DNA from: Pseudotabrizicola algicola
Lineage (GTDB): Bacteria; Pseudomonadota; Alphaproteobacteria; Rhodobacterales; Rhodobacteraceae
Reading direction: 5' to 3'
Assembly: GCF_010915705.1 (NCBI RefSeq)
Contig: NZ_JAAIKE010000003.1
Span: 186,001-250,000 of the forward strand
Length of the DNA stretch: 64,000 nt
The notes beneath the pieces were generated by a model. That model ran no database searches. It was not told where the DNA came from and saw only the letters and a list, made by a program, of their open reading frames with translations. This document shows, piece by piece, positions 16,157 through 39,557 of this stretch (positions are counted from its first letter, which is position 1; each line of letters begins with the position of its first letter). Both the position numbers and the translations under genes were made by a program.

Positions 16157-16175
16157 TCCTGCCACAGTCCTGAAA

Positions 16176-21612: not shown

Positions 21613-22728
21613 ATGAAGATCGGTTTGGTGGTCAATCCTGTGGCGGGTCTTGGCGGGGCGGTCGGGCTGAAGGGCACCGACGGGGCCGATACGGTGGCCG
21701 AGGCGCTGCGGCGCGGGGCCGAGCCGCAGGCGGGGCTGCGGGCGCGGCGGGCGCTGACGCGGCTGGCAGCGCGGGTTCCGGGATGCGCGATATCGGTCGC
21801 GCCGGGGCCGCTCGGGGCAGATTGGGCCGCCGGGCTTGATCTGCGGCCCAGCATCGCGCCCCTGCCCGAGCGGCGCGGAACCGCGCATGACACGCGCGCG
21901 GCGGTTCTGGCCTTGGCCGATTGCGACCTGCTGGTTTTTGCCGGTGGCGATGGCACCGCGCGCGACGTTGCAGCCGTTCTGCCGCAAGGCCGTGGCCTTC
22001 TGGGCATTCCGTGCGGGGTCAAGATGCATTCGGGCGTCTTTGCCATCTCGCCCGAGGCGGCGGGGGCGGCCTTGGCCGATCTTTGTACGGCGCAGGGCGG
22101 GGTGCAGTGGGATGATTCTGCCGAGATCATGGATATCGACGAAGATATCTTGCGGGCCGGACGCTTGGCTCCGCGCCTGTATGGGTTGGCGCGCGTGCCG
22201 CGTTTGCGCAGCCGGATGCAGGCGGCAAAGGGCGGGCCACGTCAGGATGCGGCAGCGGCGCTTGCCGGTGCTGCCGCCGAGATTGCGCGCGGAATGGAAG
22301 CGGGCGTGTTGTATCTGATCGGTCCCGGCACCAGTGCGGGGGCGGTGGCGCTTGCGGCGGGGCATCGGCCCAGTCTGCTTGGCACCGATGCCATGCTGGA
22401 CGGGAAGATGCTGGCACGCGACGCACGCTCTGCCGATCTGGAGCGGCTGGCGCAGGGTCGCAGGGTGAGGATCATTCTCGGGGTCACGGGGCAGCAGGGG
22501 TTCTTGCTGGGCCGGGGCAACCAGACGATTTCGGCTGGCCTGATCGCACAGGCCGGACGGGAGGGGCTTATCGTGCTGGCCACGGCGGAAAAGCTGGGTG
22601 CCTTGGCGCAGCCGATGCTGTGGGTCGATACCGGCGCGCCTGCGCTTGATGCGGATTTGACAGGTTTTGTGCAGGTCCACACCGGCCCGAGGCAGCGAAG
22701 GCTGATGCGAATTGGCGCGGCGGCATAA
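21613..22728 (+). CDS. ATP-NAD-kinase-like protein (AcoX-like)
   Basis: A 371-residue soluble protein with an N-terminal NAD-kinase/diacylglycerol-kinase-type nucleotide domain. MKIGLVVNPVAGLGG and the diagnostic FAGGDGTARDV (GGDGT) are present. It is longer than housekeeping NAD kinases (about 290) and resembles AcoX-type proteins of acetoin clusters, whose role is unsettled. It could make NADP for a pathway reductase such as the divergent AKR, or phosphorylate another nucleotide-like substrate. It is followed 72 nt later by the glycine-decarboxylase-like pair under its own operator. Confidence 0.82.
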   Translation: MKIGLVVNPVAGLGGAVGLKGTDGADTVAEALRRGAEPQAGLRARRALTRLAARVPGCAISVAPGPLGADWAAGLDLRPSIAPLPERRGTAHDTRAAVLALADCDLLVFAGGDGTARDVAAVLPQGRGLLGIPCGVKMHSGVFAISPEAAGAALADLCTAQGGVQWDDSAEIMDIDEDILRAGRLAPRLYGLARVPRLRSRMQAAKGGPRQDAAAALAGAAAEIARGMEAGVLYLIGPGTSAGAVALAAGHRPSLLGTDAMLDGKMLARDARSADLERLAQGRRVRIILGVTGQQGFLLGRGNQTISAGLIAQAGREGLIVLATAEKLGALAQPMLWVDTGAPALDADLTGFVQVHTGPRQRRLMRIGAAA

Positions 22729-22800: not shown

Positions 22801-24207
22801 ATGACGGGACCAACCCGAGCCCATCCCTGGATGGCCAATTCCGCACCGGGGATGCTGGAGGCGATGCTGGCCGAGATCGGTGCGGCGAACCTTGCCGAGG
22901 TGTTGGAGCAGATTCCGCAGGACCATTTCCGCAAGACGCCGCTGAACCTGCCGCCGCAGCTTGCGTCGGAGATGGAGTTGAAGCGCGACCTGCTGGGCAA
23001 GCTGCGCAAGAATGCGACCTGCGAGGAGAACCTGAGCTTTCTTGGCGCGGGGGTCTGGCAGCACCATGTTCCGGCGATTGTCGACGAGATTGTGGGGCGC
23101 ACCGAGTTTGCGACCAACGTCTGGGGCAGCTACCAGTCGGACCACGGGCGCAATCAGGCGTGGTTCGAGTTCTCGTCGCAGCTTGGCGCGCTCTTGAACC
23201 TCGATGTGGTGCAACTGCCTGTTTATTCATGGGGCTGTGCCATCGGCCATGCCATCCGCATGGCAGCGCGCAAGACGGGGCGCAACAAGGTGCTGCTTGC
23301 GCGGCTGTCTGATCCTGAACGCCTGTCGGTGATCCGCACCTATTGCCAGCCGCAAGAGATGGATGGCGCGATCGAGATTGTGCTGGTGGAGCCGGATGCC
23401 GCGACGGGGCGGCTTGATCTGGCCGATCTGCGGGGCAAGCTGGGGCCAGATGTGGCGGCGGTGTATTTTGAAAATCCGGCCTATCTGGGCACCATCGAAA
23501 CCGAAGCCGCCCAGATTGCCCGCCTGACGCGGGCGGCGGGGGCGGAGACGATCGTGGGCGTCGATCCGATCAGCCTTGGCGTCATGACCGCGCCCGGCGA
23601 TTATGGGGCCGATATCGTCACCGGCCCTGTGCAGCCCCTCGGTGTGCATATGAATTGCGGCGGCGGGGTGGGCGGCTTTATCGCCTCGCGCGACGAGCCG
23701 GAATATGTGCATCAGTATAACGGCTTTCTGGTGTCGGTGGCCGAAACGGTGCAGCCGGGGCAGCTTGGCTTTGGCTTGGCCTGCCCGCACCAGAACTCTT
23801 ACGGCCAGCGCGAGCATGGCAATGACTGGACCGGCAATTCCACCTATCTGTGGGCCATCGCCGGCGCGGTTTACATGAGCCTGCTAGGACCTGACGGATT
23901 TGCCGAGGTGGGGCGGCTGATCATCTCCCGCGCGCGCTATGCGGCAAAGCTGCTGGCCGAGGTGCCGGGGGTGCGGGTGCATTGGCCTGACACCACGTTC
24001 AAGGAATTCGTGGTGAACTTTGACGAAACCGGCCTGAGCGTGGCCGAGATCAATGACCGTCTGCGCGCCCGGGGCATTTTCGGGGGCAAGGATCTTTCGG
24101 GCGAAGGGCTGGGCCTTGGCCAGTCTGCCCTGTGGTGCGTGACCGAGGTTCACAGCGCCGCTGACCTGCGCCGCGCCGCACAAACTCTTTCGGAGGTGTT
24201 GAAATGA
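22801..24207 (+). CDS. Glycine-decarboxylase-like protein, subunit 1 (GcvPA family, divergent)
   Basis: A 468-residue fold-type I PLP-family subunit like GcvPA of split glycine cleavage P-proteins. Family blocks are the N-terminal LPPQLASEMELKRDLLGKL and SFLGAGVW. The position where GcvPA proteins have a TPYQPEISQG-type motif instead reads WGSYQSDHGRNQ, and the following YDGATA-type block reads YSWGCA, so the active-site face is changed. The start ATG has AAAGGAG upstream; the overlapping GTG one codon earlier is less likely. It overlaps subunit 2 by 4 nt. No gcvH or gcvT occurs in the window, so true glycine cleavage is doubtful. Confidence 0.85.
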   Translation: MTGPTRAHPWMANSAPGMLEAMLAEIGAANLAEVLEQIPQDHFRKTPLNLPPQLASEMELKRDLLGKLRKNATCEENLSFLGAGVWQHHVPAIVDEIVGRTEFATNVWGSYQSDHGRNQAWFEFSSQLGALLNLDVVQLPVYSWGCAIGHAIRMAARKTGRNKVLLARLSDPERLSVIRTYCQPQEMDGAIEIVLVEPDAATGRLDLADLRGKLGPDVAAVYFENPAYLGTIETEAAQIARLTRAAGAETIVGVDPISLGVMTAPGDYGADIVTGPVQPLGVHMNCGGGVGGFIASRDEPEYVHQYNGFLVSVAETVQPGQLGFGLACPHQNSYGQREHGNDWTGNSTYLWAIAGAVYMSLLGPDGFAEVGRLIISRARYAAKLLAEVPGVRVHWPDTTFKEFVVNFDETGLSVAEINDRLRARGIFGGKDLSGEGLGLGQSALWCVTEVHSAADLRRAAQTLSEVLK

Positions 24208-25760
24208 CCCGTCTGCCCAATTTTCACGCCGCAAAATGGGATGAGCCCGTGGTGATGGAGCTTGGCCGCCCCGGCGGGCGCGGCCAGTTGTTTCCGGCGC
24301 CGGAAGCCGAAATTGCCGAGGCGGTCGGAGACAACCCCGTGCCGGAAGCGATGCGGCGCAAGGACCGCCCTGTGCTGCCCGAGATCACGGAGTTCGAGGC
24401 GCAGCGGCATTACCTGCACCTGAGCCAGATGACGCTGGGCATGATGGGGGTCAGCCTGTTTGGCACCTGCACCATGAAGTATAATTCCAAGACATCGGAG
24501 TTTGCGACATGGCGGCCCCAGATCGCCGAGGTGCATCCCTACCAGCACCCCGACACGCTGCAGGGTGTGCTGGAAATCATGCATGACTTTGATGGCATCC
24601 TGCAATCGCTGTCGGGGATGGATCAGTTCGTGTTCCAGCCGGGGGGCGGCGCGGATGCCGCCTATACGATGACGGCGGTAGCGCGGGCCTATTGGGCCGA
24701 TCGCGGGCAGTTGGGCCAGCGCACCGAGATGGTGACCAGCATTCAGGCGCATCCGTGCAATCCGGCCACGGCGGCGGCGGCGGGCTTTACCGTCATCAAC
24801 CTGCCGCTGGAGGAGAATGGCTATCCCTCGCTCGAGGCGCTGAAGGCGGCGCTGAGCGAGCGGACGGCGCTCATCATGCTGAACAACCCGGATGACATGG
24901 GGATCTACAACCCGGAAATCCGCGAATGGGTGCAGGCGGCCAAGGATGTCGGCGCGCTGTGTTTCTATGACCACGCCAATTTCAACGGGGTGATGGGCAA
25001 GCTTTCGGCGCGCGAGCTGGGGTTCGATGCCTGCATGTTCATGCTGCACAAGACCTTCGGTGCGCCGAAAGCCGGGGGCGGGCCCGCCGTGGGGGCCTTC
25101 GGCTGCTCGGCCGAGCTTGCGCCCTATATGCCTGCGCCGGTGGTGGCCAAGCAGGGGGATCGCTATGTGCTGGACGAGGATCGGCCTAAGTCCTGCGGCA
25201 AGATCCGCGAGTTCTGGGGCAATGTCCCGCAGGTGGTGAAGGCCTATGCCTGGGCCCGTGCGATGGGGGCCGAGGGGATCCAGCTTGCCAGCGATATCTC
25301 TGTCGTGGCCAACAACTACATGGATCACCGTCTGGCCAAGCTGCCCGGCATTGAGCGGTCCAATCCCGATGTGACCAAGCGGCGGATGGAGATGACCCGC
25401 TGGTCACTCGCGCCGCTGCATGAGGAAACCGGGATCGGGACGGTGGAGATTGCCAACCGCATGGCCGATTACGGCATCGACCCGTGGTGGATGAGCCACG
25501 AGCCGTGGATCGTGCCGCAGCCCTTCACGCCGGAAGCGGGGGAGTTGTGGTCGAAGGAAGATATCGACCTGTGGATCGATGTGCTTGCCAAGATCATGCA
25601 GGAGGCGCGGGAGAACCCCGAACTGGTGCGCACGGCCCCGCACAACCAGCCGATTGCGCAGGTCAAGGGCGATGCGTTCGAGAACCCGTCGAAATGGGCG
25701 ATGACGTGGCGCGCCTATCTGCGCAAGCGGGATCAGGCCGCAGCACAGGGCGCGGCCTGA
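24204..25760 (+). CDS. Glycine-decarboxylase-like protein, subunit 2 (GcvPB family, divergent)
   Basis: A 518-residue PLP subunit of the GcvPB family. The Schiff-base lysine is conserved in MLHKTFGAPKAGGGP, and GTCTMKYNSK and YDHANFNGVMG are recognisable. The canonical AHGTNPASA loop reads AHPCNPATA, a change in the cofactor/substrate region. It is coupled to subunit 1 by a 4 nt overlap. Because lipoyl H-protein, T-protein and L-protein genes are absent, the pair probably decarboxylates or otherwise transforms a different amino acid, or borrows H-protein from elsewhere in the genome. Confidence 0.86.
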   Translation: MTRLPNFHAAKWDEPVVMELGRPGGRGQLFPAPEAEIAEAVGDNPVPEAMRRKDRPVLPEITEFEAQRHYLHLSQMTLGMMGVSLFGTCTMKYNSKTSEFATWRPQIAEVHPYQHPDTLQGVLEIMHDFDGILQSLSGMDQFVFQPGGGADAAYTMTAVARAYWADRGQLGQRTEMVTSIQAHPCNPATAAAAGFTVINLPLEENGYPSLEALKAALSERTALIMLNNPDDMGIYNPEIREWVQAAKDVGALCFYDHANFNGVMGKLSARELGFDACMFMLHKTFGAPKAGGGPAVGAFGCSAELAPYMPAPVVAKQGDRYVLDEDRPKSCGKIREFWGNVPQVVKAYAWARAMGAEGIQLASDISVVANNYMDHRLAKLPGIERSNPDVTKRRMEMTRWSLAPLHEETGIGTVEIANRMADYGIDPWWMSHEPWIVPQPFTPEAGELWSKEDIDLWIDVLAKIMQEARENPELVRTAPHNQPIAQVKGDAFENPSKWAMTWRAYLRKRDQAAAQGAA

Positions 25761-25773: not shown

Positions 25774-26910
25774 CTAGTCCGCGAGGACCGAGATGCCCTT
25801 GAGCGGCAGCGAAGGCGGCCGACCCAGAACAAGGTCGGCCGTCATGCGGGCCGTCATCGGTCCGGCGCTGAAGCCGACCCAAGGGAACAGCGCGAGGAAG
25901 AAGCCCGGCAGGCCCGGTGCCTCGCCCAAGATGGGGCGCCAGTCCGGCGTGCCGTTCACCCATGCGGTCCACGACCGCAGGGCGCGGACGCCCGCGACGC
26001 TTGGCACCACGCCCGCGGCCATGCCCATGTTGCCGGTCAGGCTGCGCGGATCGGTGACCAGCCCGTCGCCGCGCACGGCGGCGGGCCAGCCGCCGCCGAT
26101 CACCAGCCCGCCGTTCGCCACCTGCTTGAGCGACAGCTTTCCGACTGCCGAATAGACCAGATGCGGAATGGCGGCGGCCATCGGTTCGGTCACCGTGACC
26201 TGCAGGGGAAAGCCATCGATGCCAAGACGCAGGCCGAGCATCCCCGCGATCTGCCCCGCCGCCGCGCCCGCCGCATTGACGACGCGGCGCGCGGTCAGGT
26301 TGCCCTTGTCGGTGCTGACCGTGTAACCCTCTGGCCCCGCCTCTATCGCGGTCACGCGGGTGTGGCGGTGTATCTTCGCCCCCGCACGCTCTGCCGTGGC
26401 AGCGATGGCCGGGGTCGCGCGCAGCGGGTTGGCCTTGCCTTCACGGGCGCAGAAGCCTGCGCCGATGGCATCCTCGGCCAGATAGGGCGCGATGGCGCGC
26501 AGATCGGTGCGATCCAGCACGACAGTCTCTACCCCCGCCTCGGCCTCGATCCGTGCCTTGGCGGCGATGGCCTGCATCTGGGCATCGGTCCGCGCGACCA
26601 CCAGCCCGCCCGCCAGCTTGACCTGCAAATCCTCGCCCACACGCTCGGACAGGCCCTGCCACAGCGTCAGCGAGTCAGTCAGAAGCCGCAGGCAGGGCGC
26701 ATAGGCGCGCGCCCAAGCCTCGCCGTAGGCCACGAATTCGGGATACTGGATTTGCAGGTGGATCGAACCGGCATTCGCGCCCGACGCCTGCGCGCCGAGT
26801 TCCCCCGCCTCGAGCAGGACCACATCCGCGCCGCCGTCGGCCAGATACATCGCGGTCATAAGGCCAGCGATACCGCCCCCGACCACCACAACATCCGCTT
26901 TTTGTTGCAT
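25774..26910 (-). CDS. FAD-dependent amino-compound oxidoreductase (DadA/HcnC family), copy 1
   Basis: A 378-residue flavoprotein. The N-terminal dinucleotide motif VVVVGGGIAGLMTAMYL is followed by LLEAGELG; a second conserved block is GNAGSIHLQIQ-like (ANAGSIHLQIQ). The C-terminal GFSAGPMTARMTADL closes the FAD site. It is a paralogue of the HcnC-like gene at 34237-35361, and like it would oxidise a C-N bond of an amino acid or secondary amine to an imine. ATG at 26910 is taken rather than the adjacent GTG. It is divergent, 47 nt away, from a DHDPS-family lyase. Confidence 0.88.
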   Translation of the reverse strand: MQQKADVVVVGGGIAGLMTAMYLADGGADVVLLEAGELGAQASGANAGSIHLQIQYPEFVAYGEAWARAYAPCLRLLTDSLTLWQGLSERVGEDLQVKLAGGLVVARTDAQMQAIAAKARIEAEAGVETVVLDRTDLRAIAPYLAEDAIGAGFCAREGKANPLRATPAIAATAERAGAKIHRHTRVTAIEAGPEGYTVSTDKGNLTARRVVNAAGAAAGQIAGMLGLRLGIDGFPLQVTVTEPMAAAIPHLVYSAVGKLSLKQVANGGLVIGGGWPAAVRGDGLVTDPRSLTGNMGMAAGVVPSVAGVRALRSWTAWVNGTPDWRPILGEAPGLPGFFLALFPWVGFSAGPMTARMTADLVLGRPPSLPLKGISVLAD

Positions 26911-26957
26911 CACAACCCCCGTGCCGGTTCGCGCCGGTCGTCAGAAAGGACAAAGAC

Positions 26958-27905
26958 ATGAAGACCTTCAGCGGCAGTTACACTGTCACCATCACCCCCT
27001 TTACCGAGGACGGGTCTGAAATCGACTATGCCGCGTGGCGGCGGTTTCTGGATTGGCAGTTGGCCTGCGGCGTTCCCGGCATCATCATCCTTGGCACCAC
27101 CGGCGAATTCCTGACGCTGACCGATGACGAGCGCGGGGCCTTTATCGACGCCACCGTCAAGCACATCGGCGGACGCATTCCGGTGCTGGTCGGCTCGATG
27201 AACGCCTATACGCCCAACGCCGTGCGCTATTCCCGGCAGGCGCAGGACCTTGGGGCTGACGGGCTGATGATCATTCCGCCCTATTACTACACGCCGACCG
27301 AGGACGAGATCTTCAACTATTACAAGGCGATCTGCGAAGGCTGCGATCTGCCGATCATGCTTTACAACAACCCCTTCACGTCCAACGTGGACATGAGCGC
27401 CAAGCTGGTGGGGCGGCTGACGAAATCCTTCGAGCAGATCCGCTATATCAAGGAGGCCAGCCAGCGGATCGAACGCATCCACGCGATCATCGTCGAATCC
27501 GACGGGCTGATGAATGTCTGGGCGGGCCAGCAGGTGCTGGAAAGCTACAAGATGGGGGCCAAGGGCTATGTGAACCCCTATGGCAACTACATTCCGCGGG
27601 CGAGCGTCAAGTTCGTCGAATATGCCGAGCAGGGCCGGTGGGATGACGTCTGGGCGATCCAGTCGCTGATCCAGAAGTTTGATGCGATCATCACCAAGGG
27701 CCATCCGCTTTATGGGCACCAGTGCTATTCCAAGGCGCTGGCGGCGGCGGCGGGCTATCCGGTGGGGGATGTGCGCGCGCCCATCACCACCTTTGCAAGC
27801 CTTGGCGCCGAGGGGCGCGAGCGGGTGGCGGCGATGGTGCCGCTGATGGCAGAGCTTGACCGTGTGGTGGACCAGATCGAAGGGCGCGCGAAGGCCGCTG
27901 AATAG
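26958..27905 (+). CDS. DHDPS/N-acetylneuraminate lyase family aldolase, copy 1
   Basis: A 315-residue TIM-barrel enzyme. The Schiff-base lysine is in YIKEAS, the catalytic tyrosine in LYNNP, and the carboxylate-binding GTTGEF motif is present, so it should be active on an alpha-keto acid. Family members include dihydrodipicolinate synthase, keto-deoxy-sugar-acid aldolases and the hydroxyproline-pathway deaminase. The pairing with amine oxidases makes the last type attractive but unproven. The start follows AAAGGACAAAGAC. It converges with the SDR gene, with 2 nt between the stops. Confidence 0.88.
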   Translation: MKTFSGSYTVTITPFTEDGSEIDYAAWRRFLDWQLACGVPGIIILGTTGEFLTLTDDERGAFIDATVKHIGGRIPVLVGSMNAYTPNAVRYSRQAQDLGADGLMIIPPYYYTPTEDEIFNYYKAICEGCDLPIMLYNNPFTSNVDMSAKLVGRLTKSFEQIRYIKEASQRIERIHAIIVESDGLMNVWAGQQVLESYKMGAKGYVNPYGNYIPRASVKFVEYAEQGRWDDVWAIQSLIQKFDAIITKGHPLYGHQCYSKALAAAAGYPVGDVRAPITTFASLGAEGRERVAAMVPLMAELDRVVDQIEGRAKAAE

Positions 27906-27907: not shown

Positions 27908-28672
27908 TCATCTGATGTAAGCCGCTCCGTTGATGTCGAGGGTCGCGCCGGTGAGATGCCGCGCGCGGCCCGAGGCCAGAAACACCGCAAGCTCGGCGAT
28001 TTCCTGCGGCGGCACCCATTCGCCCATCGGCAGTTGCGCGGTGACGGCGGCAACGCCGCCGGTGCGTTCGGCGCTTTCCACGCTCATCTGCGTGGCGACG
28101 ACGCCGGGGGCGATGACATAGGCGAGGATGCCATCCTTGGCATGGTTGCGGGCCACCGTCTTTGTGGCGGCCGCGATGGCCGCCTTGGTGGCGGCGTAGG
28201 CGATGGCACCGGGGTTGGTGGTGCCGCGTGTCGTCACCCATGACCCGATGCCGATGATGCCGCCCTGCCGCCCTGCGGCCAGCCAGTCGCGCACCGCAAG
28301 GCGCATGAGTTGGGCGGGGGCGAGCACGTTGATGCGCCACGCCTCATCCCATGTGTCATCCCACAGGGCGGCGTCATCGGCGATGCCGCCCGCCTGCCGC
28401 ATGATGGCGGCATTGTTCACCAGAACGTCGGGCAGGCCCTCGGCACAGACTTCGGCCCAGAAGGCGGGGATACAGGCCGGATCGGCGAAATCGGCCGAGA
28501 CAAGGCGCGCGCGGTCGGGGGCAGAGGTGATGGCTGCCTCGGCCCCCGCGCGGTCGCGGCCGTAATGGGCGATCACCCGCGCGCCCGCATCCAGCATCGC
28601 GGTGGTGATGGCGGCCCCGATCCCCTTGGAGGCGCCGGTGACAAGGACAGTGCGGCCTTCGAGCATGGTCAT
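27908..28672 (-). CDS. Short-chain dehydrogenase/reductase
   Basis: A classical SDR of 254 residues with TGASKGIG cofactor motif, VNNAAI, Ser in GIGSW and the YAATK catalytic pair. It starts 3 nt after the old-yellow-enzyme stop, with GGAAG upstream, so the two form one leftward operon under operator site 5. Together with the flavin reductase it suggests reduction of an enone and a carbonyl. Substrate not assigned. Confidence 0.9.
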   Translation of the reverse strand: MTMLEGRTVLVTGASKGIGAAITTAMLDAGARVIAHYGRDRAGAEAAITSAPDRARLVSADFADPACIPAFWAEVCAEGLPDVLVNNAAIMRQAGGIADDAALWDDTWDEAWRINVLAPAQLMRLAVRDWLAAGRQGGIIGIGSWVTTRGTTNPGAIAYAATKAAIAAATKTVARNHAKDGILAYVIAPGVVATQMSVESAERTGGVAAVTAQLPMGEWVPPQEIAELAVFLASGRARHLTGATLDINGAAYIR

Positions 28673-28675: not shown

Positions 28676-29776
28676 TTACTTCCTTGTGATGAAGGGCGTG
28701 TTGCGCAGGGCGGGGTTTGACCGCGCATAGGGCGCGGGCAGCACGATCTGTTCGCCAAGGGCCAAGGCCGCGCGCCATGCCCAGTGCGGGTCCCAGAGCA
28801 TGCCGCGCGCGATCGAGATCATGTCGGCCTGACCCGAGGCGAGAATGGTTTCGGCCTGCACCGCTTCGGTGATCTGGCCCACGGCCATCGTGGGAATGGC
28901 GCTTTCCGTGCGGATCTTTGCGGAAAAGCCCACCTGATAACCCGGTCCGGTCACGATCTTCTGCCGGTTGTCCAGCCCGCCCGACGAGACGTCGATCATG
29001 TCGCAGCCCGCGTCACGCAGGGCAGTGGACAGGGCGACCGCCTCATCCGCGTGCCAGCCGCCTTCGACCCAGTCGGTCGCCGAGAGCCGCAGGATCACCG
29101 GGTAATCGTCCGGCACGGCGGCGCGCACGGCGCGGAATACCTCGAGCGTCAGGCGCAGGCGGTTTTCCAGACTGCCGCCGTAGCGATCTGTCCGCTGGTT
29201 CGAGAGCGGCGACATGAACTGGTGCAGCAGATAGCCGTGGGCGGCGTGAATCTGGATCAGGTCAAACCCCGCGCGCACCGCACGCCTTGCGCTGTCGGCA
29301 AAGGCGGCGATCAGCGCGGCAATCGCGGATTCATCCATCGCGCGGGGGGTGTGCCATGTGTCGAGATAGGGCAGGGCGCTGGGACCGACGGTTTCCCATG
29401 CCTCATCGCCCTGTGCCGGACCGCTGCCCTGCCACGGCGGCAGGGTGCTGGCCTTGCGTCCGGCATGGGCAAGCTGGATGCCGATCTTGGCCGGGCTTTG
29501 GCGATGCACGAAGTCGACGACCTTGGCAAAAGCCTCCTCTTGCGCATCGTTCCACAGGCCGGGGCAGCCGGGGGTGATGCGGCCCTCGGGCAGGACGCCC
29601 GTCGCCTCGGCGATGATCAGGCCCACGCCGCCCAGTGCGAACTGACCCAGATGCACCATGTGCCAGTCCGACGGCACCCCGTCATGGGCCTGATACTGGC
29701 ACATCGGGGCCACCACGATGCGGTTGGGGACCGTCAGGCCGCGAATGTCGATGGGGGTAAAGAGCCTGCTTGCCAT
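28676..29776 (-). CDS. Old-yellow-enzyme family NADH:flavin oxidoreductase (YqjM-like)
   Basis: A 366-residue FMN barrel protein. PNRIVVAPMCQYQAHDG near the N-terminus contains the YqjM-type cysteine; the His pair and barrel motifs (IQIHAAHGYLLHQFMSPLSNQRTDRYGGSLENR) define the family. The start at MASRLFTP follows GAAGGAACGAGC; frames extending upstream run into the promoter and operator. Such enzymes reduce activated C=C bonds or open amine/enoate substrates. It is divergent from the isomerase. Confidence 0.92.
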   Translation of the reverse strand: MASRLFTPIDIRGLTVPNRIVVAPMCQYQAHDGVPSDWHMVHLGQFALGGVGLIIAEATGVLPEGRITPGCPGLWNDAQEEAFAKVVDFVHRQSPAKIGIQLAHAGRKASTLPPWQGSGPAQGDEAWETVGPSALPYLDTWHTPRAMDESAIAALIAAFADSARRAVRAGFDLIQIHAAHGYLLHQFMSPLSNQRTDRYGGSLENRLRLTLEVFRAVRAAVPDDYPVILRLSATDWVEGGWHADEAVALSTALRDAGCDMIDVSSGGLDNRQKIVTGPGYQVGFSAKIRTESAIPTMAVGQITEAVQAETILASGQADMISIARGMLWDPHWAWRAALALGEQIVLPAPYARSNPALRNTPFITRK

Positions 29777-29813
29777 GCTCGTTCCTTCAAGTTTGTGATT
29801 GAACCAATGGTTC

Positions 29814-29847
29814 GTGCGATATATGAACTTATGTGCGATATTATGCT
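29814..29847. promoter_or_regulatory. PcaU-type operator, site 5 (divergent OYE-SDR / isomerase)
   Basis: Half-sites GTGCG (29814), TGAAC (29824) and GTGCG (29833), plus a degraded fourth. A separate perfect 13-base palindrome GAACCAATGGTTC sits just before it (29801-29813). The site lies about 37-39 nt from both divergent starts. Confidence 0.78.
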
Positions 29848-29886
29848 CTGGCTGTGAAGCCCTGACAAACAAAAAGGACATGGAAC

Positions 29887-30726
29887 ATGACTGCACTTCC
29901 CGTCGCTGCCAGCACATTTCCCTTTCTGTATTCGCGCGATGGTCTGGATGCGCTCAAGCACTTGCGCGGTCTGGGCTTCGATGCCTTCGAGATGATGATC
30001 TTTCCTCCGCATTGCTGGCCGCGTGAACTGAGCGTCACCCAGCGCCGCGAGACGAAGGCCTGGCTGAATGGCGAAGGCGCACGGCTTACGTCTTTCTGCT
30101 ATCCGCTGCTGGACAACAACCCCAATGGCGTGGACCGTCTGATGCGGGCCTATACGCTGGACCGTTACCGCGAGGCGATCGATCTCGCCGCCGAATGGAG
30201 CTGCCCCTATGTGGTGGCGATTCCGGGGCCGGTCAGCTCGCTGATCAACCCGCCGCGCGAGTGGATGCTGAACTGGTTTGTCGAGGGCGTGCAGGAACTG
30301 GTGCGCTATGCCAAGGGCACGGGCGTGGAGATCCTGCTGGAAAACGTGCCGTTTACCTTCCTGCCGAGCGCGCAGGACATGGCCGACACGGCCAAGCTGA
30401 TCGGGCCGGAAGTGGGCATCAACTTTGATATCTGCAACTCGGCCTACATCAAGGAAGACCCTGCTGCCGCGATCCGTATGCTGGGGTCCTTGGTCAAGAA
30501 CGTGCATATCTCGGATTCGGGCTATGGCGAGTTCAAGCACGAGCGGCTTGGCACCGGCATTGTCGATCCGGCCCCGGTTGCAGCGGCGCTGAAAGAGATT
30601 GGCTATACGGGTGATACCGTGCTCGAGATCATCACCGATGCCTTGGTGCCGGGGGCCGATCCGGATGGCGACATTCTGGCCAGCAAGGATATTCTGGTGC
30701 AGCACGGCTGGAAACCGCTGGGCTGA
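29887..30726 (+). CDS. Sugar phosphate isomerase/epimerase family TIM-barrel protein
   Basis: A 279-residue AP-endonuclease-2-like barrel. Likely metal ligands are Glu in ILLENVP, Asp in INFDICN, His in KNVHISD and Glu in VLEIITD, the usual Glu-Asp-His-Glu set of xylose-isomerase-like enzymes. Members isomerise or epimerise sugars, inositols and hydroxy-keto acids. It is a single-gene unit sharing operator site 5 with the divergent reductase operon. The specific reaction is unknown. Confidence 0.87.
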   Translation: MTALPVAASTFPFLYSRDGLDALKHLRGLGFDAFEMMIFPPHCWPRELSVTQRRETKAWLNGEGARLTSFCYPLLDNNPNGVDRLMRAYTLDRYREAIDLAAEWSCPYVVAIPGPVSSLINPPREWMLNWFVEGVQELVRYAKGTGVEILLENVPFTFLPSAQDMADTAKLIGPEVGINFDICNSAYIKEDPAAAIRMLGSLVKNVHISDSGYGEFKHERLGTGIVDPAPVAAALKEIGYTGDTVLEIITDALVPGADPDGDILASKDILVQHGWKPLG

Positions 30727-30774: not shown

Positions 30775-31533
30775 TCAGGGCAGGCCCGCTTCGACCGGAT
30801 AGACATGGCCTGTCAATCCGGCGGCGGCATCGCTGGCAAGAAAATGGGCGAGATTGGCGACATCTTCGGGCGTGGCCATGCGGCCCAGCATAGTATCCGC
30901 GGCCAGCGCGGCCAGCGCCACCTCGGGCGCCGGACCCCCGTTTTCATGGCGGGTGACGATGCGCGAGATCAGGGCCTCGGTGGCGATCGGGCCGGGGGCC
31001 AAGGCATTCACGCGCACGCCTCTTGGCCCCAGTTCCATCGCCGCCGCGCGCATGACGCCGATCGCCGCGTGTTTCGAGGCGGTGTAGAGCATCTGTCTGG
31101 GATGCGCCCGAAAGCCGTTGATCGAGGCCATGATGATGGCAGAGCCATGCCCCGAGGCGGCAAGCGCATCGGCAAAGCTGCCGAGCGTGCTGGCGACGCC
31201 CCAGACGTTCACGGTCATCACACGGTGCCATTCGGCGGCGTCCAATTCGGTCACCCCGCGCCACGGCGGCACAAGGCCGGCATTGGCGACCACCACGGCA
31301 ACCGGTCCCAGCCGCGCTGCGACCGCCTGCATTCGGGCGGGTGCTGCCGGATCGGCCAGATCGACCGCGACCCCCTCCCATTCCGGGGGAAGCGCCTCTA
31401 GCATTTCGGGAAGGTCAAGCGCGACGATGCGCGCGCCAGAGGCAGCCAGCCGTTCGGCTATGACCCGCCCCAAACCGCCCGCCGCCCCTGTCACAACAGC
31501 CGTGCGTCCGGCCAGATCTTGTATCACGCTCAT
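30775..31533 (-). CDS. Short-chain dehydrogenase/reductase
   Basis: A 252-residue SDR. The cofactor motif TGAAGGLG, VANAG, Ser in IIMASING and the pair YTASK are intact. The start at MSVIQDLAG is chosen because it lies just before the cofactor fold and downstream of operator site 6; no strong Shine-Dalgarno is visible. It is divergent from the dehydrogenase-oxidase operon (31642-35361), suggesting a shared pathway. Substrate unknown. Confidence 0.88.
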   Translation of the reverse strand: MSVIQDLAGRTAVVTGAAGGLGRVIAERLAASGARIVALDLPEMLEALPPEWEGVAVDLADPAAPARMQAVAARLGPVAVVVANAGLVPPWRGVTELDAAEWHRVMTVNVWGVASTLGSFADALAASGHGSAIIMASINGFRAHPRQMLYTASKHAAIGVMRAAAMELGPRGVRVNALAPGPIATEALISRIVTRHENGGPAPEVALAALAADTMLGRMATPEDVANLAHFLASDAAAGLTGHVYPVEAGLP

Positions 31534-31575
31534 ATTGCACGCCGCTTTCGATAGGATTATGGTGCCTGTGTTTGT

Positions 31576-31599
31576 CGCACTTTTGTTCGTCATGTGAAC
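31576..31599. promoter_or_regulatory. PcaU-type operator, site 6 (divergent SDR / oxidase operon)
   Basis: Half-sites CGCAC (31576), GTTCG (31585) and TGAAC (31595). It lies 42 nt from both the leftward SDR start and the proposed rightward GTG start. It overlaps an upstream in-frame GTG, which argues for the later start. Confidence 0.78.
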
Positions 31600-31641
31600 G
31601 AATGCAAGTGTATTCTGGTCAGGCGAAGGGTGGGCAATCTG

Positions 31642-32583
31642 GTGGCGGATCATCGAAATGTGACAATACTTGGCGCGGGGTCGATCGGGCTTTCCTTTGC
31701 CGCCGTGTTTTCCGACGCCGGATTTCATGTCACGCTATGCGATCCTGACGCGGAGCGGCGGGCGCAGGCGCAGGCCGGCCTTGACGTGCAGCGCGAGGCG
31801 ATTGCGCTTGCGGGTCTGGGGCGCGGTGAGGCGGGGCCGATCACCGTCGCGGCGGATGCCGGTGCGGCTTTGCCGCTTGCCGATCTGGTGATCGAATGTG
31901 GCCCGGAATCGCTTGCCATCAAACAGGCGATCTTTGCCGATCTGCTGGCGCGCTGCCACGCGGATACGGTTCTGGTCACCGCATCTTCGGCGATCCAGAT
32001 GTCGCATATCGTGCCTGCGGCAGAGGATCAGCGGCGCTGTCTGGTTGCCCATCCGGTCAATCCGCCCGCCGTGCTGCGCCTGATCGAGCTTTGCCCTGCC
32101 CCCGGCACGCAGGCCGAGGCGGTAGAGCGCGCGGCCGACCTGTTTGGCGCCGCGGGGTTCGAGCCGGTGCGCATGCGGCGCGAGATCGAGGGGTTCGTGC
32201 TGAACCGCCTGCAAGGCGCAGTCCTGCGTGAAGCCTATCGCCTTGTCGACGAGGGCGTGACAGATGTAGCAGGGATCGAGGCGGTGATGCGGCTCGGGCT
32301 CGGTCCGCGCTGGGCGCTGTCCGGCCCGTTCGAGACGGCAGAACTGAACACGCCGGGGGGCATCCGCGCCCATGCAGCGCGCATGGGGCCAGCCTATGCG
32401 CGGATGGGTGCGGCCCGTGGCGAGCAGGTGGATTGGCACGCGGGCCTGATTGACAAGGTGGAAGCAGAACGCCGCAAGGCGATTGCCGCCGAGCGCCTGC
32501 CGCTGCGGGCGGCATGGCGGGCGCGGGCGGTGGCACGCCTTGTTGCGGCGCGTGACGCCTTGATGGGAGACAGACCGGAATGA
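31642..32583 (+). CDS. 3-hydroxyacyl-CoA dehydrogenase family (lambda-crystallin / L-gulonate dehydrogenase-like)
   Basis: A 313-residue NAD-dependent beta-hydroxy-acid dehydrogenase. The Rossmann motif VTILGAGSIGLSFAAVFSDAG is at the N-terminus, CDPD binds the ribose, and the active-site block LVAHPVNPPAVLRLIELCPAP is close to the HPVNPP motif of lambda-crystallin and L-carnitine/L-gulonate dehydrogenases. I choose the GTG start with AAGGGTGG upstream; an earlier GTG is possible. It overlaps the flavoprotein gene by 4 nt. It would oxidise a 3-hydroxy acid made in the pathway, but the substrate is open. Confidence 0.84.
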   Translation: MADHRNVTILGAGSIGLSFAAVFSDAGFHVTLCDPDAERRAQAQAGLDVQREAIALAGLGRGEAGPITVAADAGAALPLADLVIECGPESLAIKQAIFADLLARCHADTVLVTASSAIQMSHIVPAAEDQRRCLVAHPVNPPAVLRLIELCPAPGTQAEAVERAADLFGAAGFEPVRMRREIEGFVLNRLQGAVLREAYRLVDEGVTDVAGIEAVMRLGLGPRWALSGPFETAELNTPGGIRAHAARMGPAYARMGAARGEQVDWHAGLIDKVEAERRKAIAAERLPLRAAWRARAVARLVAARDALMGDRPE

Positions 32584-34247
32584 CGCAACCCCTTGGCCAC
32601 TTTACCTTTGACGGGCAGCAGGTGCCGCTGCGCCCCGGCCAGTCACTGGCTGCGGCGCTGACAGAGGCCGGTCTGCGCCAGTTCCGTGCGACCGCCAAGG
32701 GCGCGGCGCGCGGCATGTTCTGCGGCATGGGCGTGTGTCAGGACTGTCTGGTGACAGTCGATGGCGTGCCGAACCGGCGCGCCTGCATGACCGCCGCGAC
32801 GGCAGGGCAAGAGGTTCAGACACAGGTGCCGTTTCCCGATCTGGGGTCCGCTTCGGTGCCGCAGGCTTCGGCACCGGCGCGGGTGATTGCACCCGATGTG
32901 TTGATCGTGGGCGGCGGGGCGGGCGGTCTGTCGGCGGCCATTGCCGCGCGGGAGGCCGGGGCCAGTGTCATCATTCTGGATGAGCGCAAGGTGGGCGGGG
33001 GGCAGTATTTCAAGCAATCCGCCGTCGGCGCGCCGCTGGATGCGCAGCAATCGGATGGTGCGGGGCTGCTTGCGCGGGCGCTGGCCGCAGGGGCCGAGCT
33101 GATTGGCGAGGTGGAAATCTGGGGAGCTTTTGACGGGCTGCTGTTTCTGGCCGAACACAAGGGGGCCGCGCTGATCGCGCGCCCAAAGGCTGCCATCATT
33201 GCCACGGGTGCCTATGAGCGGCCCGAGATCCGGCCCGGCTGGACGCTGCCCGGCGTGATGACGACGGGCGCGGCGCAGACCCTGTGGCGCAGCTATCGCA
33301 CCCTGCCGGGGCGGCGCGTGGCCATCGTGGGCTCCGGGCCGCTGAATCTGCAGGTGGGGCGCGAACTGGCCCAAGGCGGGGCCGAGGTTGTTCTGATCGC
33401 CGAAAGGGGGCCAGCCCCTTGGCTGCGCCCCTTGGCCTCAGCGGCGCTTGCCTTCGCCGATCCGGGTCTCGTGCTGACGGGGCTGCGCACCTTGGCCGAT
33501 CTGCGCAAGCGGGGCGTGCCGATCCGGCACGGGACCCGGCTGGAGAGGATTGATGCGGCAGAACAGGGGCTGCGGGTGACGGTCGAAGGTGCAGGCGGGA
33601 AGACCGCCGTTACCGCCGATGCCGTGCTGATGAACGCCGGGTTTGATCCGCAGAATGAGATCCTGCGCCTGCTGGGCGCGCGGTCAACCTATGATCGGGC
33701 CTTTGGCCATTTGCGCGTGACACGGGATGAGACCTGCGCGACTTCGGTGCCAAGGCTTTACGCCGTGGGGGATTGCGCGGGCCTTGGCGGCGCGCCTGCC
33801 GCGATGGCCGAGGGGCGCATTGCGGGGCGGGCGGCGGCGGCGGCGCTCGGGTTTGGCGATGGCTATGATCTGTTCGCCGACCATCGTCGCCTTGCCCGTT
33901 ATCGCCGCTTTCAGAAGCATCTCTGGGCCTTGCATGATGTGGCCCCCCGCTTGCCCGATGTGCCGGATGACACGCTGATCTGTCGCTGCGAGGAGATCGA
34001 TGCGGGCCAGATCCGGCAGGGGCTGGCCGAAACGCCCGGCCATGCGGGCACGCTGAAGCGGGCGACGCGTGTTGGCATGGGGCGCTGTCAGGGGCGATAC
34101 TGCGGGCCTGTCGCGGCACGGCTGGTGGCGGCGGCGACGGGTGCCGCGATGGACGAGCGCAGTTATTTCGCCCCGCGCGTGCCGATAAAACCGGTGGCGA
34201 TTTCCGCGATCCTGGCTGCCGAAGAGGCGCTGAACGATGCGCGCTGA
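32580..34247 (+). CDS. Fused [2Fe-2S] / FAD-NAD(P) oxidoreductase (HcnA-HcnB-like fusion)
   Basis: A 555-residue protein joining what are two subunits in hydrogen cyanide synthase and opine or D-hydroxyproline dehydrogenases. Residues ~1-85 are a Fer2-like domain with cysteines in MFCGMGVCQDC and a later RRAC. From ~100 is a flavoprotein disulfide-reductase-like domain (VLIVGGGAGGLSAAIAA, a second dinucleotide fold at VAIVGSGPLNLQVG). The C-terminus carries a BFD-like [2Fe-2S] motif (LICRCEE, then GRCQGRYCG). It is coupled to the HcnC-like subunit by an 11 nt overlap. Cyanide formation cannot be assumed; amino-acid or opine oxidation is the likelier role. Confidence 0.88.
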   Translation: MTQPLGHFTFDGQQVPLRPGQSLAAALTEAGLRQFRATAKGAARGMFCGMGVCQDCLVTVDGVPNRRACMTAATAGQEVQTQVPFPDLGSASVPQASAPARVIAPDVLIVGGGAGGLSAAIAAREAGASVIILDERKVGGGQYFKQSAVGAPLDAQQSDGAGLLARALAAGAELIGEVEIWGAFDGLLFLAEHKGAALIARPKAAIIATGAYERPEIRPGWTLPGVMTTGAAQTLWRSYRTLPGRRVAIVGSGPLNLQVGRELAQGGAEVVLIAERGPAPWLRPLASAALAFADPGLVLTGLRTLADLRKRGVPIRHGTRLERIDAAEQGLRVTVEGAGGKTAVTADAVLMNAGFDPQNEILRLLGARSTYDRAFGHLRVTRDETCATSVPRLYAVGDCAGLGGAPAAMAEGRIAGRAAAAALGFGDGYDLFADHRRLARYRRFQKHLWALHDVAPRLPDVPDDTLICRCEEIDAGQIRQGLAETPGHAGTLKRATRVGMGRCQGRYCGPVAARLVAAATGAAMDERSYFAPRVPIKPVAISAILAAEEALNDAR

Positions 34248-35361
34248 TGTGCTGGTGATCGGCGCGGGCATCACGGGGATGATGGCCGCGCTGCACCTTG
34301 CGGACGCGGGCGCCGAGGTGCGCCTGGTGGATGCGGGCGAGAACGCGGGCACCTGGGCCAATGCGGGCAGCCTGCACGTTCAGATGCAAAGCCGGTTCAT
34401 GCGGCTCTATCCCGATCAGGTGCCTGCGGTCGAGGCGTCGCTGCCGCTCTACAAGGCCGCTGCCGAGGAATGGGTGCGGCTGGATGCGCTCTATGGTCCG
34501 TTCGAGTTGGTGCGCAAGGGCGGGCTGATGCTGGCCGAGGGTGCCGACCAGTTGCGGTTTCTGGAGGGCAAGGCGCGGCGCGAGGCGGCGCAGGGCCTTT
34601 CGGTGGAGATTCTGGATCGCGCGGCGCTGGACCGTTTTGCGCCGTGGCTGGGGCCCCAGATCGTCGGGGCGGAGCTATGCCGTGACGAGGGCAAGCTGAA
34701 CCCGCTGATCGCCAATGCGCGGCTGATGGCAGAACTGGCGCGGCGCGGGGTGCAGATCATGCGCGACCGGGTGGTGCGGCTGGAACATCGCGGCGACGGC
34801 GTGATGGCGACGGGGCGCAACGCAGCCTATCGGGCGGATCAGGTCATCGTGGCCTCGGCCTGGGGGGCGGGTGAGGTGGTGCAGGATCTGGGTGTCGCGA
34901 TCCCCACCAAGGCCGAACCGCTGCATATGAACATCACCGAAGCGGCGGCGGTGAGCATCGGCCATCTGATCCAGCATGCGGAGCGGTCGATCACGCTCAA
35001 GCAACTTGGTCAGGGCCAGATCGTGATTGGCGGCGGTTGGCCCGCGCGGGACCGCGGGCGCGACATGCCGCCCGAGGTGCTGGCGGCGTCCTTGCTGGGC
35101 AATGTCGCGCTGGCCGCGCGGCTGGTGCCGCAGATCGGCGGGCTGCGGGTGATCCGCACCTGGGCGGGCATGAACACGACCGCCGATGGCGCAAGCACGA
35201 TTGGCAGGCTGCCGGAGGCATCGCGCGTGGTGATGGCGCTGCCCGGCGATGCGGGCTATACGCTTGGCCCGCTGGTGGCGCGGCTGGCGGCAGGCGTTGC
35301 GCTTGGCACCGTGCCAGACGGCGAGGTGGCCGGTTTTGCGCCGGCGCGCTTTGCGGCCTGA
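34237..35361 (+). CDS. FAD-dependent amino-compound oxidoreductase (HcnC/OoxB-like), copy 2
   Basis: A 374-residue DadA-type flavoprotein with VLVIGAGITGMMAAL, the block NAGSLHVQMQSRF, and a C-terminal GDAGYTLGPLVARLAAG. It overlaps the fused HcnAB-like gene by 11 nt, so the two very likely form a heteromeric dehydrogenase in which this subunit oxidises the amine and the partner carries electrons away. It is a paralogue of the stand-alone gene at 25774-26910. Candidate substrates are D-amino acids, imino acids or opines. Confidence 0.88.
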   Translation: MRADVLVIGAGITGMMAALHLADAGAEVRLVDAGENAGTWANAGSLHVQMQSRFMRLYPDQVPAVEASLPLYKAAAEEWVRLDALYGPFELVRKGGLMLAEGADQLRFLEGKARREAAQGLSVEILDRAALDRFAPWLGPQIVGAELCRDEGKLNPLIANARLMAELARRGVQIMRDRVVRLEHRGDGVMATGRNAAYRADQVIVASAWGAGEVVQDLGVAIPTKAEPLHMNITEAAAVSIGHLIQHAERSITLKQLGQGQIVIGGGWPARDRGRDMPPEVLAASLLGNVALAARLVPQIGGLRVIRTWAGMNTTADGASTIGRLPEASRVVMALPGDAGYTLGPLVARLAAGVALGTVPDGEVAGFAPARFAA

Positions 35362-35379: not shown

Positions 35380-36258
35380 CTAGCGCTTGAGCGATTCGCG
35401 GATGTTGCGCACCGTTTCCTGAAGCTTGGGCAGCACATATTCGATGGCGCTCGCAGGGGTCATGCGCACGGTGGGAATCCCCACGTTGATGGCACCCACA
35501 AGACCGCCCGCCGAGTTGTGCAGCGGCACCGCGATGGACATCAGGCCGGTTTCAAGCTCTTGGTCCACTAGCGACCAGCCTTGGTCGCGGACCTGTTCCA
35601 GCACGCGGCGGAACTCGGCCGGATCGGTCACGGTGTGTTCGGTCATCCGGGTCAGCGGGATGTGCTGCAACATGCCCGGCCACATTTCGGGCGGCTGCGC
35701 GGCCAGCAGGACGCGGCCCGTGGCGGTGCAATGGGCCGGAAAGCGCGCGCCCACGGTGATGCCGACGCTGATCACCCGGTGATATTGCGCGCCCGAGACA
35801 TAGACCACGTCGAACCTGTCGAGAACTGCCGCAGAGACCGATTCCCGCAGCTCGCTCGACAGGTGGTCGATGAAGGGGCGGGCGATGTCCCACGCGCCCT
35901 TGGAGGACAGCACGGAATAGCCGAGTTCGAGAACTTGTGGCGTAAGATCAAAGAGTTTGCCATCGGCCACCGCATAGCCTTCGTGCACCAGCGTGAGCAG
36001 GATGCGGCGCGCGCCGGCGCGGGTGTTTCCGGTTTCCGCCGCCACTTCCGAAAGGGTCATCTTGCGGCGGGTGCGGTTGAAGGCGCGCAGCACCTCGAGC
36101 CCGCGCGCCAGACTGGACACATAGTCACGCGGGTTCAGCCCGCCGTTCTCGTCATCGCTCCAGTCAGGGGATGCCGTCATCAGACCTGTCCGCGCCGGAT
36201 TGCGTGGCGGCAGGGCATCAACCGTGGCCTCGTCCTTTTCAATCACTTCTTTGGCCAT
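35380..36258 (-). CDS. IclR-family regulator, PcaU/PcaR/PobR subtype
   Basis: A 292-residue regulator. A charged leader (1-45) precedes the winged HTH at about 47-107 (SLARGLEVLRAF, MTLSEVAAETGNTRAGARRILLTLV), and the effector domain covers about 115-290 (CTATGRVLLA, the PLHNSAGGLVGAINVG block). The GARRILLTLVHEGY and LTPQVLELGYSVLSS blocks are typical of the PcaU/PcaR subgroup. The start follows GGAGGTGGCCG. It is divergent from the carbohydrate-type importer operon with operator site 7 between them, consistent with autoregulation. It is the only IclR-type gene here and the best candidate reader of the repeated operator; ligand unknown. Confidence 0.92.
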   Translation of the reverse strand: MAKEVIEKDEATVDALPPRNPARTGLMTASPDWSDDENGGLNPRDYVSSLARGLEVLRAFNRTRRKMTLSEVAAETGNTRAGARRILLTLVHEGYAVADGKLFDLTPQVLELGYSVLSSKGAWDIARPFIDHLSSELRESVSAAVLDRFDVVYVSGAQYHRVISVGITVGARFPAHCTATGRVLLAAQPPEMWPGMLQHIPLTRMTEHTVTDPAEFRRVLEQVRDQGWSLVDQELETGLMSIAVPLHNSAGGLVGAINVGIPTVRMTPASAIEYVLPKLQETVRNIRESLKR

Positions 36259-36386
36259 CGGCCACCTCCGCATAAACGTCCGGGTCTTCGTGTTTTGGCG
36301 CTCTTCGTAGCACAGCCAAATCTCATCCTATACCGAGAAATACGCTTGTTTAGGACTTGATTTTGAATCCGCTTTCATTGTTATAT

Positions 36387-36436: not shown

Positions 36437-37771
36437 ATGAAGAATAGCCTCACTTTTCCGAACGGACTGACGAGAAGAAACCTGCTGGCAGGGCTTGCTG
36501 CCGGCACGGTGATGTCAACGCTGCCGCGCCGCGCCCATGCGCAGGATGTTACCCTGCGCTGGTGGTCGCCGCAGGGCGCGCCTGCGCAGGCAGAAGCCTA
36601 CAAGTTCCAGATTGCCGCGTTCGAGGCGCTGAACCCCGGTATCAAGGTGGTGTTCGAAACGACGTCGGACGAAGGCTATGCCCCGCAGCTTGCCGCCGCC
36701 TTCGCCAGCGGCGAGGTGCCCGATATTGTCACGCACCTGCCATCCTTCTCGGTGCAGACCTATTATGCGAATGGTCTGGTCGAGCCGTTCGACGATGTCA
36801 TCAACGCGATTGGCGCGGATGACTATTACGCCGGTGCCAATGACGTGTTCAAAACCGCCGATGGCAAGTATTGCGGCACGGGCATCGGCAACACTGCCGC
36901 CAACATGCTGTGGCTGCGCCGTGACCTGATGGAAGCCTCTGGCATTGCCGCCGCTCCGGCGACATGGGACGAGCTGCGCGCTGCCTGCCAGACACTGCAG
37001 AAGGACGGCGTTTTCGGCGCGCCGCTGCCCTATGGGCAGAATTCGATGACATCGCTGATCTTTATCGGCTTCATCCACGGCGCGGGCGGTCAGGTGTTCA
37101 CGCCCGATCTTCAGGTCGCCATCGACAGCGAGCAGACCCGCAATGCGCTGGAATTCTACAAATCCATGCGCGAGCTTTGCCCGCCGGGTGCCACCAACTA
37201 CAGCTGGGGCGAAAGCCTGACGGCCTTTGTTTCCGGCGCGACCGCAACGGGTATCTATGCCGGGCGCGTTCTGGCCAATGTCGTCGCGCAGAATCCGGGC
37301 ATCGCCGACCATGTGACCTGCACGACCTATCCGACCATTTCGGCCGATGTGGCGCCGTGGACGTTCAACGACTTCCCGAGCGTGTTCATCCCGGCGCAGT
37401 CGCGCAACAAGGACGCGGCCAAGGCCTTTGCCGCCTTCCTGTTCAACCCCGAAGGATACATCAAGCAGCTGCACGCCGCCCCCGGTCACGTCTTGCCGGT
37501 TCTGAAGTCGATCAACGAGAACCCGGCCTATCAGGACAATGACATCATCCGGAAGTATCCTGCCGAGGTCGATCTGATGTCGAGTGCTGCGGCAGGCGGC
37601 TATAACCTTGGCTATGAAAGCAGCGCCCATGCGTCCAACGAGCGCGCCGGCGAGGTGATTGCCTCCAACGCGATCTCCGATCTGGTGCAGCGCGTCGTGC
37701 TGAACGGCGATGATGTCAACGCGGCGCTTGGCGATTGTGCCAAGGCGATCGAAGCCATCATGAAGGCCTAA
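36437..37771 (+). CDS. Carbohydrate-type ABC substrate-binding protein (SBP_bac_1)
   Basis: A 444-residue periplasmic binding protein of the maltose/glycerol-phosphate class. A Tat-type signal (LTRRNLLAGLAAG, cleavage near AHAQ) is followed by VTLRWWSPQG, FEALNPGIKVVFE and VPDIVTHLPSF typical of the fold. The start follows GGGAG. It leads a nine-gene operon that continues through two permeases, an ATPase and five enzymes to 45958. Despite family homology to sugar binders, the attached aminotransferase and aldehyde dehydrogenase suggest a nitrogenous ligand. Confidence 0.92.
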   Translation: MKNSLTFPNGLTRRNLLAGLAAGTVMSTLPRRAHAQDVTLRWWSPQGAPAQAEAYKFQIAAFEALNPGIKVVFETTSDEGYAPQLAAAFASGEVPDIVTHLPSFSVQTYYANGLVEPFDDVINAIGADDYYAGANDVFKTADGKYCGTGIGNTAANMLWLRRDLMEASGIAAAPATWDELRAACQTLQKDGVFGAPLPYGQNSMTSLIFIGFIHGAGGQVFTPDLQVAIDSEQTRNALEFYKSMRELCPPGATNYSWGESLTAFVSGATATGIYAGRVLANVVAQNPGIADHVTCTTYPTISADVAPWTFNDFPSVFIPAQSRNKDAAKAFAAFLFNPEGYIKQLHAAPGHVLPVLKSINENPAYQDNDIIRKYPAEVDLMSSAAAGGYNLGYESSAHASNERAGEVIASNAISDLVQRVVLNGDDVNAALGDCAKAIEAIMKA

Positions 37772-37779
37772 GGCACTGG

Positions 37780-37806: not shown

Positions 37807-37824
37807 TATCTTGAAGGAAATCCC

Positions 37825-39554: not shown

Positions 39555-39557
39555 CCT

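Follow-up and report, generated by a model that had tools for sequence, protein, structure and literature searches.

A widespread paralogous family of split glycine-decarboxylase-like proteins with an NAD-kinase-like partner, possibly acting without lipoyl-H-protein in amino-compound breakdown

P-proteins of the glycine cleavage system bind their amino acid as an aldimine and perform their chemistry at its alpha carbon, and both housekeeping forms of the enzyme, split (GcvPA and GcvPB) or full-length (GcvP), cleave glycine. A protein of the kinase superfamily and a pyridoxal 5'-phosphate (PLP) lyase act one after the other in the case of sphingosine kinase and sphingosine-phosphate lyase (S1P lyase), which we use here as a working analogy. 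AcoX, which lies in acetoin operons, has been called a predicted NAD kinase (PMC9676059). In this work we describe a split P-protein-like pair from Pseudotabrizicola algicola (genome size 4.49 Mb), encoded in a stretch of 64,000 nucleotides (contig C23, positions 186001-250000), which we call the window and whose numbering is used throughout unless a contig is named. The pair consists of a GcvPA-like subunit (PA; 22801..24207, forward strand, 468 aa counted from the ATG, with an alternative GTG start at 22798) and a GcvPB-like catalytic subunit (PB; 24204..25760, forward strand, 518 aa), whose reading frames overlap by 4 bases, bearing out the coupled subunits that a preliminary description of this DNA had reported. 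Upstream of the pair, a gene for an NAD-kinase-like protein (21613..22728, forward strand), with the two NAD-kinase Pfam domains PF01513 and PF20143, completes what we refer to as the triad.

Their sequences place PA and PB in a paralogous family of split glycine decarboxylase that is distinct and widely spread; this family is real and probably misannotated. For the pair itself, we consider it an even call that it is an H-protein-independent PLP amino-acid decarboxylase or lyase of amino-compound catabolism, a role in which we infer both the substrate and the independence from H-protein. The broader proposal, that the large “glycine dehydrogenase” family as a whole would be a lipoyl-independent decarboxylase/lyase with an NAD-kinase-like partner, carrying out a new reaction in amino-compound breakdown, is made tentatively and with more doubt than confidence.

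The pair shares with the glycine cleavage P-protein (Thermus thermophilus, 1wyt/1wyu) the fold, the subunit pair, the PLP lysine and the core around it, and the top PDB matches of the predicted PB structure (a model of modest quality, with a predicted local distance difference test score, pLDDT, of 71.8) are P-proteins, so that its kinship to this protein is visible both in sequence and in fold. Unlike ordinary split GcvPB, which reaches at most 36% identity to the orphan PB in our search of the class, it has the TPYQPE, HGTN and docking motifs replaced, and, unlike ordinary split GcvPAB, it lacks a gcvH or gcvT match nearby and has a kinase-like partner. The third protein of the triad is like AcoX/COG3199 proteins in having N- and C-terminal NAD_kinase Pfam domains, but differs from AcoX in being tied to a P-protein-like pair. 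With respect to S1P lyase, PA-PB belongs to a different PLP family, and a phosphorylated substrate would be an analogy only.

In order to map what changed in the two subunits, we compared, column by column, 93 PA and 96 PB rows of the core family (92 and 95 relatives, plus the window) with housekeeping rows, 21 of them split and the others (19 for PA, 20 for PB) full-length. The core rows hold four contigs twice (L064/L106, L068/L117, L069/L123 and L070/L148), and the key positions were recounted without the repeats, in 89 PA and 92 PB rows. In 28 columns of PA and 31 of PB, the housekeeping proteins nearly all share one state and the core family nearly all another, which in one column of each subunit is a gap. 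In PA, they include parts of TPYQPEISQG, which becomes a block around S-D-H-G, one residue shorter (WGSYQSDHGRNQ in the window, 23122..23157, forward strand), and parts of HIRREKATSNxCT, which becomes a block around D-W-T-G (YGQREHGNDWTGN, 23800..23838, forward strand). None of the 40 housekeeping PA rows departs from TPYQPE (with the exception of one P in one row) or from R337, K340, S343, N344 and C346, and the core family has other residues there, at K340 only in part. In PB, the housekeeping HGTN becomes HP(C/S)(N/S) (P in 91 of the 92 core rows, C in 81 and S in 11, N in 77), read in the window as AHPCNPATA (24747..24773, forward strand) in place of AHGTNPASA, with the His retained, and the His following LHKTFxxP becomes Lys in all 92. 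H183, D256, N259, H282, K283 and T284 are unchanged in every one of these rows, and K283, H183, D256 and N259 are PLP-binding positions, K283 being the PLP lysine of the LHKTF motif (25044..25058, forward strand). On re-reading, the altered motifs and the kept LHKTF given in the preliminary description all proved correct, and, because the motif changes are conserved across the orphan family, they are not sequencing errors.

Part of the replaced PA block may be the site at which H-protein docks. In a published docking model (PMC7259800), human R373 and K376 lie at the interface with H-protein, and the alignment of the 6i33 chain takes these residues (the first R and K of IRRDK, the offset being counted from K754) to PA 337 and 340. 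All 40 housekeeping rows have R and K at these positions, while in the 89 core rows position 337 is M in 31, S in 24, L in 22, Q in 7 and A in 3, and position 340 is K in 23, E in 20, H in 19, D in 11 and N in 11, with other residues in the remainder. As read from the alignments, the PLP core is kept while the TPYQPE loop, the HGTN block and the predicted H-protein docking motif are replaced, and the replacement of this motif suggests independence from H-protein.

The genome has its own glycine cleavage system apart from the pair, with a gcvT-gcvH-gcvP operon at C23:603273-607691, in which all three genes score above the NCBIfam equivalog cut-offs, and two lpd matches above cut-off, on C1 and C25. 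The pair is therefore not the glycine decarboxylase of this genome. This arrangement is general among carriers: a second, housekeeping-scoring P-protein (a GDC-P score of at least 380 bits, the orphan type scoring about 140-215) was found in 41 of the 42 pair-bearing genomes searched (43 genomes or loci were named, L091 being left out), the single exception, G282, being listed as 90% complete. In a tree of 71 rows, the 39 rows of the family (37 core and 2 subgroup) are split from the 32 housekeeping rows (21 split and 11 full-length) by a stem that is 3.0 substitutions per site long and has support 100/100, and fall outside both the split GcvPB and the full-length GcvP groups. The preliminary description had taken the pair for a repurposed paralogue, to be doubted if a phylogeny placed it among ordinary GcvPA/PB or if the genome had no other P-protein; neither is the case, and the paralogue view is well supported by the separate operon together with the tree. 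Queries for gcvH and gcvT were matched neither in the window nor in the 102 context loci, which span 1.81 Mb (103 sequences in all, including four repeated contigs, short contigs and one remnant, L078), while the same queries recovered gcvH in both longer housekeeping loci (L077 and L079) and in 5 of the 47 that have flanks of about 1.5 kb. The absence of gcvH, gcvT and lpd beside the pair, also reported earlier, thus stands: the window has no gcvH or gcvT match and both lpd matches lie on other contigs.

The kinase-like gene accompanies the pair in 75 of 81 loci and in 33 of the 34 clusters that form at 85% identity. In 385 alphaproteobacterial genomes the pair occurs in 9, the kinase-like gene in 9 and both in 8 (hypergeometric P 7e-15, with genomes taken as independent); the genome with the pair alone (G322) has a contig end close by. 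Judged by its domains and by a GGDGT motif (G111, G112, D113, G114 and T115) that is invariant in 29 aligned sequences, the protein is of the AcoX/COG3199 type, AcoX being, as we take it, a member of COG3199. This near-constant partner was unmentioned in the preliminary description. The partner is nevertheless not exclusive to the pair, since it occurs without PA and also beside ordinary GcvPAB. In the wider phylum, the kinase-like family is present in 38 of 398 genomes, and among 29 loci read with 1.5 kb flanks PA is adjacent in 1, while 28 have no PA match; at these loci (L187-L214) it adjoins varied genes, some of which presumably resemble PdxB, EpmC or MnmC (an assignment made by eye). The alphaproteobacterial genome with the kinase-like gene but without the orphan pair (G186) has it beside an ordinary-motif GcvPA/PB pair and a gene of the Kbl/BioF family. 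At this locus (L184, G186:C47:5001-22000, 5890-12018), the gene lies between the Kbl/BioF-family gene, with an epimerase-type dehydrogenase, and the ordinary GcvPA/PB, of which PB reads in two frames; no gcvH or gcvT match was found in the 17 kb around this ordinary pair.

The family is widely distributed. Among 100 genomes of the same taxonomic family, an intact PB gene of at least 62% identity is present in 4 (our genome included), and one further genome has a broken remnant with several stops (L078, G014:C15:121001-141000, around 9874-10800). The 9 alphaproteobacterial pairs of the class survey have PB identities of at least 41%. When 84,980 species genomes were scanned, 306 stretches matched, of which 265 passed a loose tblastn (E 1e-3); the loci analysed are the best 80 of these 265 relatives (at least 62% identity), the remaining 185 not having been checked for membership. 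These best 80 span several orders of Proteobacteria, Actinomycetota and one Pedobacter contig (the class placement of most genera being our assumption). The Pedobacter contig (L149) is 10 kb long, its PB groups with that of one alphaproteobacterium and it may be a contaminant. Eight plasmid records also carry the family, one of them haloarchaeal (51% identity), and 7 of the 8 annotate “aminomethyl-transferring glycine dehydrogenase”, the eighth being without annotation. Metabolic models would credit such carriers with a second glycine cleavage route, probably wrongly. Compared with four close relatives, PB has a ratio of nonsynonymous to synonymous substitution rates (dN/dS) of about 0.02-0.05, PA one of about 0.06-0.07 and the kinase-like protein one of about 0.14-0.17; the low values of PA and PB place these two under strong purifying selection.

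The mechanism that we propose starts from P-protein kinship and the kept PLP core, on which basis the amino acid would be bound as an aldimine, with chemistry at the alpha carbon. PA-PB would act as an alpha-beta PLP enzyme, in which the PLP lysine, K283, comes from PB, while PA would complete the active site, as the analogy to P-protein suggests. The amino acid, bound as external aldimine, would be decarboxylated, and, given that the TPYQPE and predicted docking blocks are replaced, the resulting carbanion would no longer be handed to lipoyl-H-protein, but rather protonated to an amine or, with loss of a leaving group, converted to an enamine or imine. Because neighbouring genes oxidise, transaminate or hydrolyse amines and imines, the product may be an amine, imine or aldehyde, which could be processed by the neighbouring flavin adenine dinucleotide (FAD) oxidases, the Rid-fused reductase, an aminotransferase or amine oxidase, and an aldehyde dehydrogenase. 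The NAD-kinase-like protein would be auxiliary and might prime the substrate, a suggestion to be taken with caution, since its gene is also found next to ordinary GcvPAB and, elsewhere, without a P-protein gene close by.

Several observations weigh against this reading. The pair still passes the NCBIfam equivalog cut-offs for GcvPA (393.8 vs 364 bits) and GcvPB (486.4 vs 441), although these are little informative, because the full-length GcvP of the same genome also passes both (418.5 and 480.7). K340 survives in 23 of the 89 core rows, and the docking residues derive from a computational model, not from a solved complex. The branch to full-length GcvP (3.63) is equally long as the stem of the orphan family, and both housekeeping types cleave glycine, so that tree distance alone is no proof of a changed reaction; the tree program also warned that long branches may attract each other. 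The gcvT control was positive only in the two long loci, one of which is the query's own, and the neighbouring genes vary greatly among lineages. Finally, because of L184, neither the partner nor the missing gcvH/gcvT neighbours alone mark a changed reaction, and the pair may yet have a glycine/lipoyl role, with glycine a candidate substrate beside the other amino acid proposed in the preliminary description.

A specialised second P-protein, which would take glycine or a near analogue as its substrate and draw on the housekeeping lipoyl-H-protein in trans, is an unlikely alternative. It would explain the passed cut-offs, the kept PLP core, the K340 retained in part of the rows and the kinase-like partner of the ordinary pair in L184, and the necessary gcvT, gcvH and lpd are available elsewhere in the genome; the AcoX of acetoin operons speaks for it as well, acetoin dehydrogenase being lipoyl-dependent. 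What it leaves unexplained is the replacement of TPYQPE and of the five otherwise invariant residues of the docking block, and the lack of a gcvH or gcvT match in the 103 context sequences. That the pair is simply an ordinary housekeeping GcvPA/GcvPB, over-read in the preliminary description, would agree with the database names and the equivalog matches, but is hardly credible in view of the separate gcvTHP and the replaced motifs, and is contradicted by the tree.

Two further alternatives retain a changed reaction. The kinase-like protein could phosphorylate a hydroxylated amino compound, from which PA-PB would remove CO2 and/or phosphate, in the manner of sphingosine kinase followed by S1P lyase. 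The constant linkage of the two favours such a kinase-primed lyase, as do the likeness of the first ~210 residues of the kinase-like model to NAD, diacylglycerol and sphingosine kinases (VIA-align, Z about 9-10.6), the presence of S1P lyase among the matches of the PB model that follow the P-proteins, and the Rid-domain fusion in 17 of 81 loci. It is, however, quite unlikely: the Foldseek matches of the kinase model are weak (none at E 0.001 or better), cysteine desulfurases stand alongside S1P lyase among the PB matches, and the kinase-like family lies apart from PA in 28 of 29 phylum loci and once with ordinary GcvPAB. A PDB sequence search with the kinase-like protein gave no match. In a decarboxylative Claisen enzyme, comparable to the alpha-oxoamine synthases, the carbanion would instead attack an acyl-CoA. 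Of the 81 loci, 8 have an acyl-CoA synthetase (gene cluster c22) close to the pair, and AMP-binding or acyl-CoA synthetase genes occur in the Gemmobacter and Rhodococcus plasmid loci, yet c22 is confined to 2 of 34 clusters and no acyl-CoA synthetase appears among the scanned window genes, which makes this option very unlikely.

In the open literature searched, we found no title on a triad of kinase-like protein and PA-PB, and no paper that brings together ATP-NAD kinase and aminomethyl-transferring glycine dehydrogenase. An involvement in ephedrine-type degradation, which had been conjectured, was set aside, no paper on it having been found in the same literature. What a P-protein does when released from H-protein could be tested naturally in this family, which also opens the AcoX-type kinase-like proteins, so far unexplained, to genetic study.

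In the distant subgroup, one locus (L072, G261, 11858-15607) has the triad followed by a methyltransferase of the MttB family and a malate-CoA ligase beta gene. At another (L182, G513, 12903-18282 and 7319-8341), the genes flanking the pair are glutamate-synthase-like or of the amidotransferase type, together with one for a Rieske oxygenase that weakly resembles glycine betaine monooxygenase. A D-apionate-lactonase-like gene lies at yet another locus. The links to methylamine and glyoxylate that these contexts might suggest were not used, as the MttB and malate-CoA ligase set and the glutamate-synthase-like and Rieske set each occur at their own locus only.

The gene company of the pair was called with our own codon-usage script. 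PA immediately precedes PB in 80 of 81 loci, touching or overlapping it in 75 of these 80, and the accessory genes recurring in the 81 loci encode short-chain dehydrogenases (50), DAO-family oxidases (48), dihydrodipicolinate-synthase-family proteins (46), old yellow enzymes (38), the fusion of aldo/keto reductase and Rid (17, in 6 of 34 clusters), class-III aminotransferases (11) and acyl-CoA synthetases (8). The Gemmobacter plasmid locus has, in addition, an APC permease and a primary-amine oxidase. The amino-compound pathway suggested in the preliminary description fits many of these neighbours (DAO-family oxidases, class-III aminotransferase, amine oxidase and amino-acid transporters). In the window, the aldo/keto reductase fused to a Rid-type domain (PF01042; 20090..21598, reverse strand) is divergent from the triad. 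Downstream of PB lie a DAO-family FAD-dependent amino acid/amine oxidase (25774..26913, reverse; sarcosine oxidase beta/ThiO-like, below cut-offs), a dihydrodipicolinate-synthase-family aldolase/lyase (26958..27905, forward), a short-chain dehydrogenase (27908..28672, reverse), an NADH:flavin oxidoreductase of the old-yellow-enzyme type (28676..29917, reverse) and a protein of the sugar phosphate isomerase/epimerase family (29887..30726, forward). These are followed by another short-chain dehydrogenase (30775..31728, reverse; its start is uncertain, the gene caller placing it at 31404), a 3-hydroxyacyl-CoA-dehydrogenase-family protein (31594..32583, forward, start uncertain), a 2Fe-2S/pyridine-nucleotide oxidoreductase resembling sarcosine oxidase alpha (32580..34247, forward), a second DAO-family FAD-dependent oxidase (34237..35361, forward) and an IclR-family regulator (35380..36273, reverse). 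Two further matches to the NAD_kinase family lie elsewhere in the genome, both on C23. A second module (36512..45958, forward) holds a sugar-type ABC transporter, a second dihydrodipicolinate-synthase-family protein, two short-chain dehydrogenases, a class-III aminotransferase and an aldehyde dehydrogenase of the succinate-semialdehyde type, and parts of it are found next to the triad at five further loci (L125, L132, L145, L150 and L152).

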